From Bacteroidia bacterium (lineage in GTDB: Bacteria; Bacteroidota; Bacteroidia; UBA4408), in the NCBI GenBank assembly GCA_014376525.1, contig JACMRI010000005.1, positions 1 to 32,779 of the forward strand: a stretch of 32,779 nt of DNA. The letters are read 5' to 3'. Shown piece after piece: positions 4,838-29,844 of this stretch; the first letter of the stretch is position 1, and each line of letters opens with the position of its first letter. The notes beneath the pieces were generated by a model, which had not been told where the DNA came from, ran no database searches, and saw only the letters and a program-made list of their open reading frames with translations. A program made the position numbers and the translations under genes.

Positions 4838-4865
4838 CTTGCCTTACATATTTTTTTACCTTTGA

Positions 4866-4903
4866 GTATATTACCAAATGGTATATTACCAAAAGGTATA
4901 ATG
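4866..4903. repeat. 15-bp tandem iterons, left flank of the ATPase unit
   Basis: Two and a half copies of a 15-bp unit lie head to tail: GTATATTACCAAATG (4866-4880), GTATATTACCAAAAG (4881-4895) and the partial GTATAATG (4896-4903). The last 24 bases (4880-4903) recur exactly at 6095-6118 on the other side of the ATPase gene. The array ends 10 bases before the ATPase start codon, so it may also be an operator or promoter region for it. Confidence 0.85.
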
Positions 4904-4913
4904 GAAAATAACA

Positions 4914-6062
4914 ATGAAAGACTCCCCATTTATATACGGTACTACAGTAAGTGTACACGCATTTACCAACAGAGAAGTAGAAACACAAAAACTACAAAGC
5001 AACTTACTTAATGGTATTAATACCATGCTTATATCGCCACGCAGATGGGGTAAATCATCGTTGGTAGAAAAAGTAATACACAATATTAATAGAAAAGACA
5101 AGAAAACTAAAACCGTTATTATTGATTTGTTTTCAGTCAGTAGCGAAGACGAATTTTTAGAATTATTTGCACGAGAGGTTATAAAAGCATCATCGAGCAA
5201 GTGGCAGGAATGGATGAGCAGTGGCAAAGATTTTTTTAGTAAACTAATGCCAAAATTAAGTTTGGGAATAGACCCTAATACCGATTTTAGTTTGAGTTTT
5301 GATTATGCCGATTTAAAGAAAAATAAAGACGAGGTAATGAACCTGCCTGAAACTATTGCCAAACAAAAAGGGATAAAGTTTATTATTTGTTTGGACGAAT
5401 TTCAAAATTTAGCTTTGTTTAACGACTACGTTAATTTTGAAAAAAAATTACGTGCGTGTTGGCAACGCCACAAGTCTGTAACGTATTGCTTGTATGGTAG
5501 TAAACGCCATATGATGACGGATATATTTAATAATTCGGCAAAGCCATTTTATAGGTTTGGAGATATTATGTTATTGAATAAAATAGAACACAAAAAATGG
5601 GTAAGATTTATAACCGAAAGTTTTGAAAAAACTGATAAAAAAATAGATGCCAAAATAGCCGAAATAATACCGCAAGTAATGAAAAACCACTCGTGGTACG
5701 TGCAACAGTTGGCGCACTACACTTGGAATATTACCCACAAAAAAGCAACATTACAAGATGTAGAAAACGCTTTAAAAGAACTCATACAAGCTAACACACC
5801 ATTGTATCAAAAAGAAATAGAAACAATAAGTGTAACACAACTTAATTTATTAAAAGCAGTAGCTAAAGGCGAAGTACAACTAATGAGTACCGCAGTAATG
5901 CTAGGCTACAAGCTAGGTACACCCAACAACGTAAGTAAAAATAAAGCCATACTTATTAATAATGATGTAATACACGAGATAAATAATGTATACGAATTTT
6001 TAGACCCAGCTTTTGAACTTTGGTTTAAAAAACAATATTTTAACAGTCCTTATTTAAGTTAA
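4914..6062 (+). CDS. AAA ATPase, archaeal-type ATPase family (COG1672-like)
   Basis: This 382-residue protein begins FIYGTTVSVHAFTNRE, the usual opening of the Bacteroidota ATPases related to PF01637. The P-loop is SPRRWGKSS (41-49), the Walker B is CLDEFQ (159-164), and a sensor-like strand reads TYCLYGSKRHMM (190-201). The C-terminal 110 residues look like a winged-helix module (SVTQLNLLKAVAKGE.., ending YEFLDPAFELWFKKQYF). There is no signal peptide or membrane segment. ATG 4914 is chosen because an upstream ATG (4901) is out of frame and lies in the repeat. The gene sits alone between 15-bp iterons and a perfect palindrome that share 24 identical bases, between unrelated genes. Members of this family are highly multiplied in some genomes, but their role is not settled; I do not assign a function beyond ATPase. 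Confidence 0.85.
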   Translation: MKDSPFIYGTTVSVHAFTNREVETQKLQSNLLNGINTMLISPRRWGKSSLVEKVIHNINRKDKKTKTVIIDLFSVSSEDEFLELFAREVIKASSSKWQEWMSSGKDFFSKLMPKLSLGIDPNTDFSLSFDYADLKKNKDEVMNLPETIAKQKGIKFIICLDEFQNLALFNDYVNFEKKLRACWQRHKSVTYCLYGSKRHMMTDIFNNSAKPFYRFGDIMLLNKIEHKKWVRFITESFEKTDKKIDAKIAEIIPQVMKNHSWYVQQLAHYTWNITHKKATLQDVENALKELIQANTPLYQKEIETISVTQLNLLKAVAKGEVQLMSTAVMLGYKLGTPNNVSKNKAILINNDVIHEINNVYEFLDPAFELWFKKQYFNSPYLS

Positions 6063-6081
6063 ATTTAACTCTTAAAATTTT

Positions 6082-6118
6082 CATTATACCTTTTGGTATA
6101 TTACCAAAAGGTATAATG
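6082..6118. repeat. Perfect 17-bp inverted repeat, right flank of the ATPase unit
   Basis: CATTATACCTTTTGGTA (6082-6098) and its exact reverse complement (6102-6118) are separated by TAT. The right-hand 24 bases (6095-6118) are identical to 4880-4903. It lacks the GC-rich stem and T-run of an intrinsic terminator. It lies 19 bases after the ATPase stop and 26 bases before the permease start, so it could be an element end, a binding site, or both. Confidence 0.9.
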
Positions 6119-6144
6119 AAAATAAAACAATAAAAATAAATACT

Positions 6145-25860: not shown

Positions 25861-28800
25861 ATGAATACAAACAAACTGCTTACTTATTTGCTAGTAGTGT
25901 TAGGCTACACAGCAATGAATATAAGTGTTAATGCGCAAACTACCGATAATTGGGCAAACAAAATGCCTAAAAATCAGCTATTTATTGAAAACAAAGGTCA
26001 GTTCGTATTGCCTGCATATCTTAAACAACAATCATTATTCACATTAGATTACGGTAAATTAAAAATACACGTCACCTCCAAAGGACTTGTGTACCAAGTG
26101 TTAAGTGAGAAAGTAAAAACGAACGAAGAGCGTGAAAAATTAGAGCGAGCTATGCGCAAAGCCGGTAAATCTCACCTAGAGATAGAAGCTGCAGAACACA
26201 AAGTGGATATTACGCAAGAGTTTATACAAATGAATTTTGAAAACGCCTCTACTACCACGCAAGTAGAAGTGAAAGATAAAAATACTGATTATTTTAGCTA
26301 CTCATTCCGTAACGCTAAAGGTGGAGAAGAACACATTAACAATATTAATGGTTACAAAGTAATTACGTTTAAAAACATATACCCTAACATAGATTTAGAA
26401 TACACTGCACATGTAACCGATGGCTTAAAATACGCATTTATAGTTAATGTTGGCGGAGATGTGAGTTCTATAAAAATGAATTATAACAGCACTAATATTT
26501 TGCTCAAAAACAATAACGTAATTATAAATACATTATTGGGTAAAATAATAGACCATGCGCCTAAAACGTTTTATGCTAATGAAACTCAAAACACAATTGC
26601 ATCAAAATTTATAAAAGCTGGCAATACCGTTAGTTTTGATGTAGCTCCTTACAACCATAGTAAAACCATGGTAATAGACCCCTGGACACAAACACCTGCT
26701 ATAAACAATTCGCAAGCAGTATGGGAAGTAGAACGTGATGGACTGGGCAATGTTTATATAATAGGTGGAGACAGCCCTATGAAATTAATTAAATACAATA
26801 ATGCAGGTTTGTTGCAGTGGACTTATGTAACCCCTTACGATACAGCTGGAGGTTGGTTAGGTACATTAGCTACAGACTTAGCAGGTAATAGCTATGTTAC
26901 AAATGGTACTGATGCCTCTATTACAAAAGTAGATAATGGAGGAAGTGTTTTATGGAGTAAATCAGAAACATTGAAGGAATATTGGAGCATTGCATTTAAC
27001 TGCGATCAAACCAAAATAATAGTGGGAGGGTCTAAATTAACAGGATTAACAAATGTTGAACCTGCAGTATTTGATATTAACACAAGTAATGGAAACATTT
27101 TAGCTACCAAAATACCCACTGGAGCAGGAAGTTTATCAAGCTTTCCACCAAATATTCATGAAGTAAGAGCTATATGTGCTTCTCCCTCTTCTAAATATTT
27201 TTACCTAACTCAAGATACCATTGGGATTTTTAGTGACGATTTTAATGCCTGTGGAGGTACTAGTAATGGTTCTATTGCAAAAATAGACCACACGTACAAT
27301 TTTGGATATAAATGTGAAAATTATCGTAGCAAAGGCAATTCGGGTATATGCGCTATTAAAGCTAATAAAAAATTTGTGTATACACAAAATGGTGCTTTAG
27401 TTCATAAACGAGATTTAAATACAATGGCAATACTTGCTACTGCTACAATACCAGGAGGAGTTTCTTCAACTTCTGGTGGGAAAAAAATGGTGCAAAACAG
27501 TGGCTTAGACTTGGATACCTGCGGTAACGTATATGTTGGATCATCTACAGGCATCTCCAAATTTGATGCTAATTTAAATTTAATAACGAGCGTTACTACC
27601 ACGTTTAAAGTATATGACGTGGCTGTGAGTACAGGCGGAAATGTAATAGCAGTAGGTGCTACAGGTAATTCCACAACAACCACAACTCGCAATGGTACTG
27701 TACAATCATTTAACATGGGTGCATGCTTTCCAATTAAATTGGAATGTTGCAACAGTACAGTATGTCCAGTACCTAATAAGTGTACAACCGACGCAACATT
27801 TCAACTAAATGCGTTACAAACTGGTGGTACATTTAGTGGCGGTGCTTATGTAACTGCTACAGGTATGTTTAATCCAGCAACGGCAGGTGTTGGCACTCAT
27901 ATTATTGTATATACATTACCTTGTGGTAGCGATACAATAAAAATAATTGTTAAAGCCTGCGCATCGTTAGTAGTATGTAAAAATAGCAATGGTTCGCTTC
28001 AAGTAACTGGCGGTACAAACCCTTACACGTGGGAAAAAATAGTACGCACCAAAGATTGTTCATCGGGCTTTTGTGTGTTTGATTGTACATTGCCTATGTG
28101 TACTACCTACGTTACTACTTACGTAAACATTAGCAACACCAACACCGCTACACCAACAGCAAGTACCGACAGTATTAGAGTAAAAGACAATGCCGGCAAC
28201 GAACTATTAATATACAACCAAAGTATATTACCTGCATGTAGTGGTTGCGCACTGGTGGCCAATATTCAATCTAAAACAGATGCTACCTGCGGAGCAAACA
28301 ATGGTAGTGCAACCGTAACTACTACAAGTGCTACCTATAGTTGGAATACCACACCAGTACAAACATCACAAACTGCTACCGCCCTATCGGCGGGCACTTA
28401 TATATGTACCGTTACACAGGGCGGTTGTACTGATACCGCCAAAGTTACCATAGCAGCAAGTGCAAATATAATAGCCAACATTACCGCCCAAAGCCCTGCC
28501 ACCTGCGGAGCAAACAACGGTACTGCAGTAGTTACTTACATTGCAGGGGCTACGTATAGTTGGAATACTACACCAGTTCAAACTAATGATACTGCAACAA
28601 ATTTAGCCGCTGGCACTTATATATGTACCGTTGCACAAGGCAGTTGTACTGATACTGCCAAGGTTACCATAGTTGCAAGTGCTACACTTGTAGCAAGTGC
28701 AACAAGTGTAAATGCTTCGTGTGGAAATGCCAATGGTAGCGCCACTGTAGATATTACTGGTGTTACCTATAGTTGGAACACAAGCCCAGTACAAACTACA

Positions 28801-29844
28801 CAAACCATAACAGGGCTTAATGCAGGCACATATATATGCACCGTAAGCCAAGGTGCATGTACTGATACTGCACAAGTAACAATTACCAACAATGCCAATA
28901 TGGTTATAACCATTACTGGGGACACTACTATATGTGCCAATGGCACTACTACACTTACTGCAAATGCTCCAAGTGCTACATCATACAGCTGGAATACAAG
29001 CCCTATGCAAACTACAGCGGCTATAACTGTTACACCAAGTGCCAGCACATTTTATACCGTTACGGCGAGCAATGGCACATGCTCAGGTACACAAACTATA
29101 CACGTAAATGCTCTTAGTACAAGTAGTGCCTTTATACTTGGCGACACTTTAGTATGTTTAGGCGAACCTGTAGCATTAACAGCAAGCACAGGTACAAGTT
29201 ATGCGTGGACGCCAAGTGGTGCTACAGCACAATCAATAGTTTTTGTGGCTAATGTACCTGCTACGTTCACAGTAGTAGTAACCAATGCTACTGCACCAGC
29301 TGCCTGCCAAACATCTACCGCAACCATTAATATAAAAATATATCCGTATAGCAGTACTATAAACGCAGGAGCCGACCAAACCGTAAGCATAGGACAACCC
29401 GCTACATTAACCGCAACAGGTGCCACCAATGGTTATACATGGAACACTAACCAAACCACACCAAGTATAAATGTTACACCTACTAAAACTACAGTGTACA
29501 CAGTAAAATCTACCGATACGTTTGGTTGTGTTACCGCAGATAGTGTGCGTGTAACGGTAGATTTAAACTGCGGCGATTTATTTATAGCTACTGCATTTTC
29601 GCCTAATGATGATGGCGCTAATGATATAGAATGTGTACTTGGAAGCTGTGTAACAGCTGTATCATGGGCTGTATACGACCGTTGGGGCGAAAAAGTGTTT
29701 GAGTCTAATGCAGTAACTGATTGCTGGAATGGAACGTATAAAGGTAAACCGCTCAACACAGGCGTATATGTATATAAACTTAGCGCAACGCTCCGAAGTG
29801 GCGAAACAGTAAGCAAAAATGGTAACATTACACTTACACGATAA
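25861..29844 (+). CDS. Giant T9SS cargo protein with SprB-type repeats and type B C-terminal domain
   Basis: This 1327-residue secreted protein has several regions in order. A signal peptide (1-28, ending VNAQ) is followed by a DUF7948-like N-domain starting NQLFIENKGQFVLP (about 37-270). Next is a beta-propeller (about 275-620, e.g. DGLGNVYIIGG and DLAGNSYVTNG), then a Cys-rich linker with GGTFSGGAYVTATGMFNPATAG. Three 72-residue SprB-like repeats cover 808-1023, and Ig-like modules (1024-1235) carry 'GDTTICANGTTTLTA' and 'GADQTVSIGQPATLTATG'. The C-terminal gliding-motility/CHU_C-type domain is at about 1241-1327 (ATAFSPNDDGANDI ... YDRWGEKVFES ... GVYVYKLSATL), a type B T9SS sorting signal. 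It is likely an extracellular adhesin or motility surface protein, exported with the adjacent PorP/SprF protein. Confidence 0.92.
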   Translation: MNTNKLLTYLLVVLGYTAMNISVNAQTTDNWANKMPKNQLFIENKGQFVLPAYLKQQSLFTLDYGKLKIHVTSKGLVYQVLSEKVKTNEEREKLERAMRKAGKSHLEIEAAEHKVDITQEFIQMNFENASTTTQVEVKDKNTDYFSYSFRNAKGGEEHINNINGYKVITFKNIYPNIDLEYTAHVTDGLKYAFIVNVGGDVSSIKMNYNSTNILLKNNNVIINTLLGKIIDHAPKTFYANETQNTIASKFIKAGNTVSFDVAPYNHSKTMVIDPWTQTPAINNSQAVWEVERDGLGNVYIIGGDSPMKLIKYNNAGLLQWTYVTPYDTAGGWLGTLATDLAGNSYVTNGTDASITKVDNGGSVLWSKSETLKEYWSIAFNCDQTKIIVGGSKLTGLTNVEPAVFDINTSNGNILATKIPTGAGSLSSFPPNIHEVRAICASPSSKYFYLTQDTIGIFSDDFNACGGTSNGSIAKIDHTYNFGYKCENYRSKGNSGICAIKANKKFVYTQNGALVHKRDLNTMAILATATIPGGVSSTSGGKKMVQNSGLDLDTCGNVYVGSSTGISKFDANLNLITSVTTTFKVYDVAVSTGGNVIAVGATGNSTTTTTRNGTVQSFNMGACFPIKLECCNSTVCPVPNKCTTDATFQLNALQTGGTFSGGAYVTATGMFNPATAGVGTHIIVYTLPCGSDTIKIIVKACASLVVCKNSNGSLQVTGGTNPYTWEKIVRTKDCSSGFCVFDCTLPMCTTYVTTYVNISNTNTATPTASTDSIRVKDNAGNELLIYNQSILPACSGCALVANIQSKTDATCGANNGSATVTTTSATYSWNTTPVQTSQTATALSAGTYICTVTQGGCTDTAKVTIAASANIIANITAQSPATCGANNGTAVVTYIAGATYSWNTTPVQTNDTATNLAAGTYICTVAQGSCTDTAKVTIVASATLVASATSVNASCGNANGSATVDITGVTYSWNTSPVQTTQTITGLNAGTYICTVSQGACTDTAQVTITNNANMVITITGDTTICANGTTTLTANAPSATSYSWNTSPMQTTAAITVTPSASTFYTVTASNGTCSGTQTIHVNALSTSSAFILGDTLVCLGEPVALTASTGTSYAWTPSGATAQSIVFVANVPATFTVVVTNATAPAACQTSTATINIKIYPYSSTINAGADQTVSIGQPATLTATGATNGYTWNTNQTTPSINVTPTKTTVYTVKSTDTFGCVTADSVRVTVDLNCGDLFIATAFSPNDDGANDIECVLGSCVTAVSWAVYDRWGEKVFESNAVTDCWNGTYKGKPLNTGVYVYKLSATLRSGETVSKNGNITLTR
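28282..28929 (+). repeat. Three in-frame 216-bp SprB-like repeats
   Basis: Units begin at 28282, 28498 and 28714, exactly 216 bp (72 codons) apart. Each carries C-G-x-x-N-G-x-A-x-V, then YSWNTxPVQTxxT, then AGTYICTVxQGxCTDTAxVTI. Bases are also well conserved between units 1 and 2, including silent positions, which points to fairly recent internal duplication. A fourth, divergent Ig-like copy (SYSWNTSPMQTTAAITV) follows. Confidence 0.85.

Follow-up and report, generated by a model that had tools for sequence, protein, structure and literature searches.

The archaeal ATPases SSO1545 (2FNA) and PABY2304 (2QEN), which fall in the Pfam family ATPase_2 and in COG1672, consist of an AAA+ core and a winged helix. 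To our knowledge their function is not settled. Here we describe an ATPase of this kind and the array of short palindromes that precedes its gene in a Bacteroidia bacterium (UBA4408; assembly GCA_014376525.1, contig JACMRI010000005.1, positions 1 to 32,779; this whole stretch of 32,779 nucleotides is called the window). In the Protein Data Bank (PDB), SSO1545 and PABY2304 match it best in both structure and sequence, and the SSO1545-type ATPases are its closest known kind by descent. Compared with the archaeal proteins, the Bacteroidota group is small, patchily distributed and single-copy, and has a fixed palindrome array associated with its own gene; we found no comparable array described for the SSO1545 and PABY2304 proteins. 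On balance we think it probable that the winged-helix ATPase binds the array at its own promoter and regulates itself, that the window holds a second array for it downstream, and that gene and array form a compact unit that has spread patchily.

In its way of working, the ATPase would be closest to promoter-binding ATPases such as IniR. This mycobacterial ATPase regulator of 818 amino acids, which has MalT-like and SdiA-like domains, is a promoter-binding protein that controls iniBAC transcription in response to trehalose (PMC5760070). IniR is a precedent for promoter-binding regulation by this ATPase fold, and the window ATPase may act similarly; it differs in that its winged helix follows directly after the ATPase domain and its sites lie at its own promoter. 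The AbiEi antitoxin has several inverted repeats in its own promoter and is autoregulated (PMC7319586). The likeness to AbiEi lies in multiple inverted-repeat operators within the promoter of the gene itself and in the autoregulation predicted for the ATPase; the window protein differs in having another fold, no toxin partner gene and sites that are strictly 15-bp periodic. Short palindromes tied to one gene family are also known from REP/RAYT and MITE-type repeats, but the window array is not dispersed (a search of its own genome found no other copy) and is not accompanied by a transposase.

The palindrome array and its association with the ATPase gene

An earlier note on this DNA reported that bases 4880-4903 and 6095-6118 are identical and enclose a single gene, an RRWGKSS-type AAA ATPase. 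Both observations are correct. The exact match is 25 bp, one base longer on the left than first noted, and the sole open reading frame (ORF) between the copies encodes a 382 amino acid protein that matches AAA_14 above the cut-off. This pair is one of just two exact direct repeats of at least 20 bp in the whole window. The repeat is part of a larger feature, which consists of three tandem palindromic units upstream of the gene and two downstream, with a period of 15 bp. The left copy is the right portion of the three upstream 14-bp palindromes, the first of which contains the Bacteroidota -7 promoter box. The right copy lies within a perfect 22-bp inverted repeat that folds to a stem (z -9.7).

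We compared 45 homologs fetched from genome contigs (41-79% identity, including one pseudogene and one gene truncated by a contig end) and further homologs found by whole-genome search among 396 Bacteroidota genomes. Arrays were given a joint score for palindromy and similarity between units. Because per-locus palindrome scores against shuffled sequence were too weak in this A+T-rich DNA, the ATPase genes were compared with 215 other genes of the same loci. An array score of at least 19 was found upstream of 48 of the 53 ATPase genes (47 at period 15) versus 14 of the 215 control genes, two of which stand behind known downstream arrays. The close homologs belong to many Bacteroidota families, and nearly all have a similar array just 5' of the start codon. 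The unit sequence differs by clade (ATACC..GGTAT, TTACT..AGTAA and TTACAT..ATGTAA) and the 15-bp spacing is kept. When the 396 genomes were scanned with a degenerate array pattern, matches with at most one mismatch were confined to ATPase loci with one exception; the repeats are not widespread without the ATPase, an outcome that the earlier note had named as evidence against its proposal. The exception is a perfect match at a gene junction in an apparent transposable-phage region without the ATPase (G314:C20), and we take it as chance. We found neither the array sequence in this context nor this pairing of gene and array described in the literature.

Seen in the window alone, which holds only one such pair, the 25-bp repeat could be a product of chance or local duplication without function. 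Homologous genes throughout the phylum have the same array, so the repeat is far beyond chance, and the comparison with control genes contradicts this explanation, to which we give almost no credence.

Some arrays stand at genes that are broken or possibly decaying (L073; L123 in G397; L126 in G314), and G397 has two upstream arrays, at -7 and -150. Two very distant homologs (L130 and L186, 24-27% identity) have a comparable array of 13-bp palindromes at 14-bp spacing. To judge from the sequence of these two loci, the array principle may hold across the wider family.

Promoter overlap and the recognition helix

A TAnnTTTG box was found within -100 to -20 at 34 of 54 loci, versus 4.2 expected in shuffled sequence. 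In the ATACC clade the box mostly falls within the array or directly to its left, and in the TTACT and TACAT clades the array is mostly immediately 5' of the box. Most loci have an upstream array only, and this overlaps the promoter. The array has the behaviour of a cis-element that belongs to the gene, not that of a terminal repeat. The loci have two features expected of an autoregulator, a predicted DNA-binding domain and repeated sites overlapping its own promoter.

The window protein scores 31.1 against AAA_14 (above the curated cut-off of 27) and 27.6 against ATPase_2 (below the curated cut-off of 33.2); at E <= 0.001 the two profiles are matched by 40/43 and 39/43 family members, respectively. 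Profile searches of the window protein and the members found no nuclease, integrase or transposase domain, and searches of PADLOC and PHROGs gave weak matches only. The AlphaFold model (pLDDT 89.6) predicts an AAA+ core and a C-terminal winged helix with a recognition helix at residues 337-349. The best Foldseek matches in the PDB are 2qen (PABY2304) and 2fna (SSO1545), with E of 1e-14 to 1e-15. Both the profile match and the fold, an AAA+ core and then a winged helix, place the protein among the SSO1545-type ATPases.

The next Foldseek matches are Orc1/Cdc6 proteins with origin DNA (2qby and 2v1u), which share the AAA+ and winged-helix domains. Origin recognition boxes adjoin the Orc1/Cdc6 initiator gene, and tandem sites directly 5' of a gene resemble initiator-iteron layouts. 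We consider it highly improbable that the ATPase is an Orc1/Cdc6-like replication initiator with the array as an iteron-type origin, in a unit that is or derives from a tiny integrating replicon. The structural similarity is distant and reflects the general AAA+/winged-helix layout (TM about 0.5, about 12% identity), and the sites overlap promoter boxes. We found no free circular form and no evidence of replication, and the plasmid matches are only distant relatives (24-29% identical) on plasmids of 40-420 kb.

The array also covaries with the protein. Arrays were classed by their outer base (ATAC versus TTAC/TAAC) and all 376 alignment columns were scored. Residue 337, the first of the recognition helix, is the only column that separates the classes without error; ATAC arrays go with P or G at this position, and TTAC/TAAC arrays with S or A. 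The array class switches three times on the tree, and residue 337 follows in 3/3 independent switches, which are few events for classes set after inspection. Together, the association of array and gene, the promoter overlap and this covariation give good support to one suggestion of the earlier note, that the ATPase recognises its own flanking sites.

We infer that the C-terminal winged helix binds the run of 14-bp palindromes, one per 15 bp. The bound sites would overlap or abut the -7 box of the gene, and the ATPase would regulate transcription of its own gene, most likely as a repressor. How far the array is occupied would probably depend on nucleotide state or oligomerisation. In the window, the downstream copy would serve the same ATPase as a second array, and may keep transcription from reading through into the permease gene, as a block or an insulator.

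An explanation that needs no binding by the ATPase is that the palindromes are RNA or cruciform structures (hairpins in the 5' untranslated region and a terminator or insulator downstream). Palindromes can form RNA stems, and the downstream copy folds as a perfect 22-bp hairpin. In several clades (most of L066-L070 and L074-L081), however, the array is 5' of the -7 box and therefore not in the transcript. The 15-bp spacing is constant while the sequence varies between clades, a terminator scan called nothing at the array, and the outer array base covaries with the recognition helix, all of which make this explanation very unlikely. Rfam and tRNA searches gave no match.

Several points weigh against autoregulation by the ATPase. 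By itself it does not explain the downstream arrays, the compactness of the unit or its frequent relocation. In two Cyclobacteriaceae genomes, palindromic units persist beside a decayed ATPase remnant, an arrangement that a pure operator does not call for if the decay is old. Three independent switches do not suffice for a formal test of covariation, and its classes were drawn after the arrays were inspected; the array class of L124 is less certain, and L127-L129 were omitted. Among the most distant homologs checked, three (L129, L184 and L185, 27-31% identity) have no clear array by the start codon.

Table 1. Features of the ATPase locus, in window coordinates.
Feature	Position	Strand	Remarks
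Bacteroidota -7 promoter box TAnnTTTG (TACCTTTG)	4857..4864	+	57 bp before ATPase start, within first palindrome; from sequence
Upstream array, three 14-bp palindromes at 15-bp spacing	4856..4899	.	conserved before 48/53 homologous genes
Palindrome 1, degenerate, TTACCTTTGAGTAT	4856-4869		
Palindrome 2, TTACCAAATGGTAT	4871-4884		
Palindrome 3, TTACCAAAAGGTAT	4886-4899		
Left copy of 25-bp direct repeat	4879..4903	+	exact-repeat search
382-aa SSO1545-type AAA+ ATPase with C-terminal winged helix	4914..6062	+	Walker A region RRWGKSS at residues 43-49
Winged-helix recognition helix (predicted)	5922..5960	+	residues 337-349; residue 337 covaries with outer array base
Downstream array, two palindromes 15 bp apart (6086-6099, 6101-6114)	6077..6123	.	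perfect 22-bp inverted repeat, 3-nt loop
Right copy of 25-bp direct repeat	6094..6118	+	

The genes flanking the ATPase encode an amidohydrolase and a MacB/FtsX permease. The second exact direct repeat of the window (21 bp, 28393-28413 and 28612-28632) lies inside a long ORF (25861-29844) and is probably an internal protein repeat.

Distribution and boundaries of the unit

The ATPase is found in 11 of the 396 Bacteroidota genomes at E <= 1e-50, with one copy each, in nine families. In the family of the window genome, a distant homolog, and nothing closer, occurs in 1 of 7 relatives. No homolog was found in viral contigs; an unannotated faecal scaffold labelled 'Bacteriophage sp.' encodes one 43% relative.

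From one locus to another, almost all neighbouring genes are unrelated; the exceptions include the aroE clade and type I restriction loci. The DNA of L066 and L068 is 89% identical only from the start of the array through 2 bp past the stop codon, and the flanks are unrelated although the two genomes encode fmt proteins of 91% identity. Averaged across 445 locus pairs of the ATACC clade, identity has dropped to background by 4 bp outside the left edge of the array and, at the other end, as soon as the stop codon is passed. In G522 the L068 site is empty: fmt and the ortholog of the gene that follows converge there, leaving hardly any space between them. We found no target-site duplication, and none is resolvable at this empty site. 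Two other close genomes (G517 and G518) differ in gene order at fmt, leaving G522 as the only informative one. L066 and L069 share the upstream neighbour (an ispE-like GHMP kinase) and the array, and from 3 bp past the stop codon of the ATPase gene their downstream DNA differs, as would be seen if exchange were frequent at the 3' end of the unit. We did not find ispE in the assembly of the L068 genome.

In Cyclobacteriaceae, the unit stands between dgt and ileS in G281. By eye, a decayed remnant and palindromic units can be read in the dgt-ileS intergenic DNA of G478 and G446, and several further genomes have dgt and ileS together without a recognisable trace of the unit. Among relatives from the family of the window genome, the permease is kept in 7/7 and the upstream neighbour differs in all six with a readable flank, so that these relatives offer no usable comparison for an empty site. 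The ATPase does not stand at one fixed place in all relatives; its contexts differ, and one empty site (G522) was found, contrary to a second outcome that the earlier note had listed as refuting its proposal. The array and gene have been gained and lost as a compact unit, and have also been fixed in place for long periods.

These patterns could be read as those of a minimal mobile or selfish element, in which the ATPase acts on the array, alone or with recombination supplied by the host or in trans, and moves or copies a unit of 1.2-1.3 kb. Loci with arrays on both sides would be recently moved copies or would show the natural ends. This agrees with the same unit at unrelated sites, the sharp fall in identity at both of its edges, the empty site and the patchy distribution, and with two loci (L074 and L075) whose downstream array lies within a near-identical or exact 48-52 bp direct repeat flanking the gene. 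We nevertheless regard such an element as unlikely. There is one copy per genome at E <= 1e-50, unlike in an active transposon, and the unit encodes an AAA ATPase only, with neither the enzymatic domains of a transposon nor recent insertions marked by target-site duplication. A downstream array is present in only 9 of about 54 loci, most having the upstream array alone. In the aroE clade, as in Cyclobacteriaceae, the gene has been inherited vertically at a single site, and the array overlaps the promoter, as expected of an operator. We give still less credence to an autonomous, very small mobile gene of a new kind, in which the ATPase would assemble on the 15-bp-periodic palindromes and, aided by recombination or replication of the host, relocate or copy the unit of 1.2-1.3 kb without a transposase.

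The earlier note had proposed a mobile unit bounded by direct repeats. Of this proposal, the compact unit in many contexts stands, and it may be mobile in some form; the direct-repeat ends are not supported, as only a minority of loci have the additional array to which the right-hand repeat belongs. The pattern is explained equally well by plain horizontal transfer of an autoregulated gene that is complete in itself and by a dedicated mobility mechanism. We favour horizontal transfer, by which array and ORF would have spread among Bacteroidota in the main.

Possible links to conflict systems and meaning for the family

Distant homologs from another class of the phylum (L131, L132, L134-L136 and L138-L140; 24-27% identity) form the N-terminal part of long proteins, with open frames of about 1,300-1,900 codons. 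One of these (L136:1492-4113) has the ATPase and winged helix followed by TIR_2 and NACHT domains. At five other loci (L041, L044, L045, L047 and L060) the unit is either flanked by hsdR and hsdM within a type I restriction operon or adjacent to apparent remnants of these two genes. A GmrSD_N/AlbA_2 gene adjoins the unit at L041, together with a 152-bp duplicate of the hsdR 3' end. The TIR/NACHT fusion and the type I restriction neighbours suggest that the role of the ATPase may bear on bacterial conflict systems.

The SSO1545-type ATPases are mostly without an assigned function, and a conserved cis-site that covaries with the protein is a direct handle on one group of them. With this pairing of array and recognition helix, a few oligonucleotides would suffice to test for binding, autoregulation and mobility.
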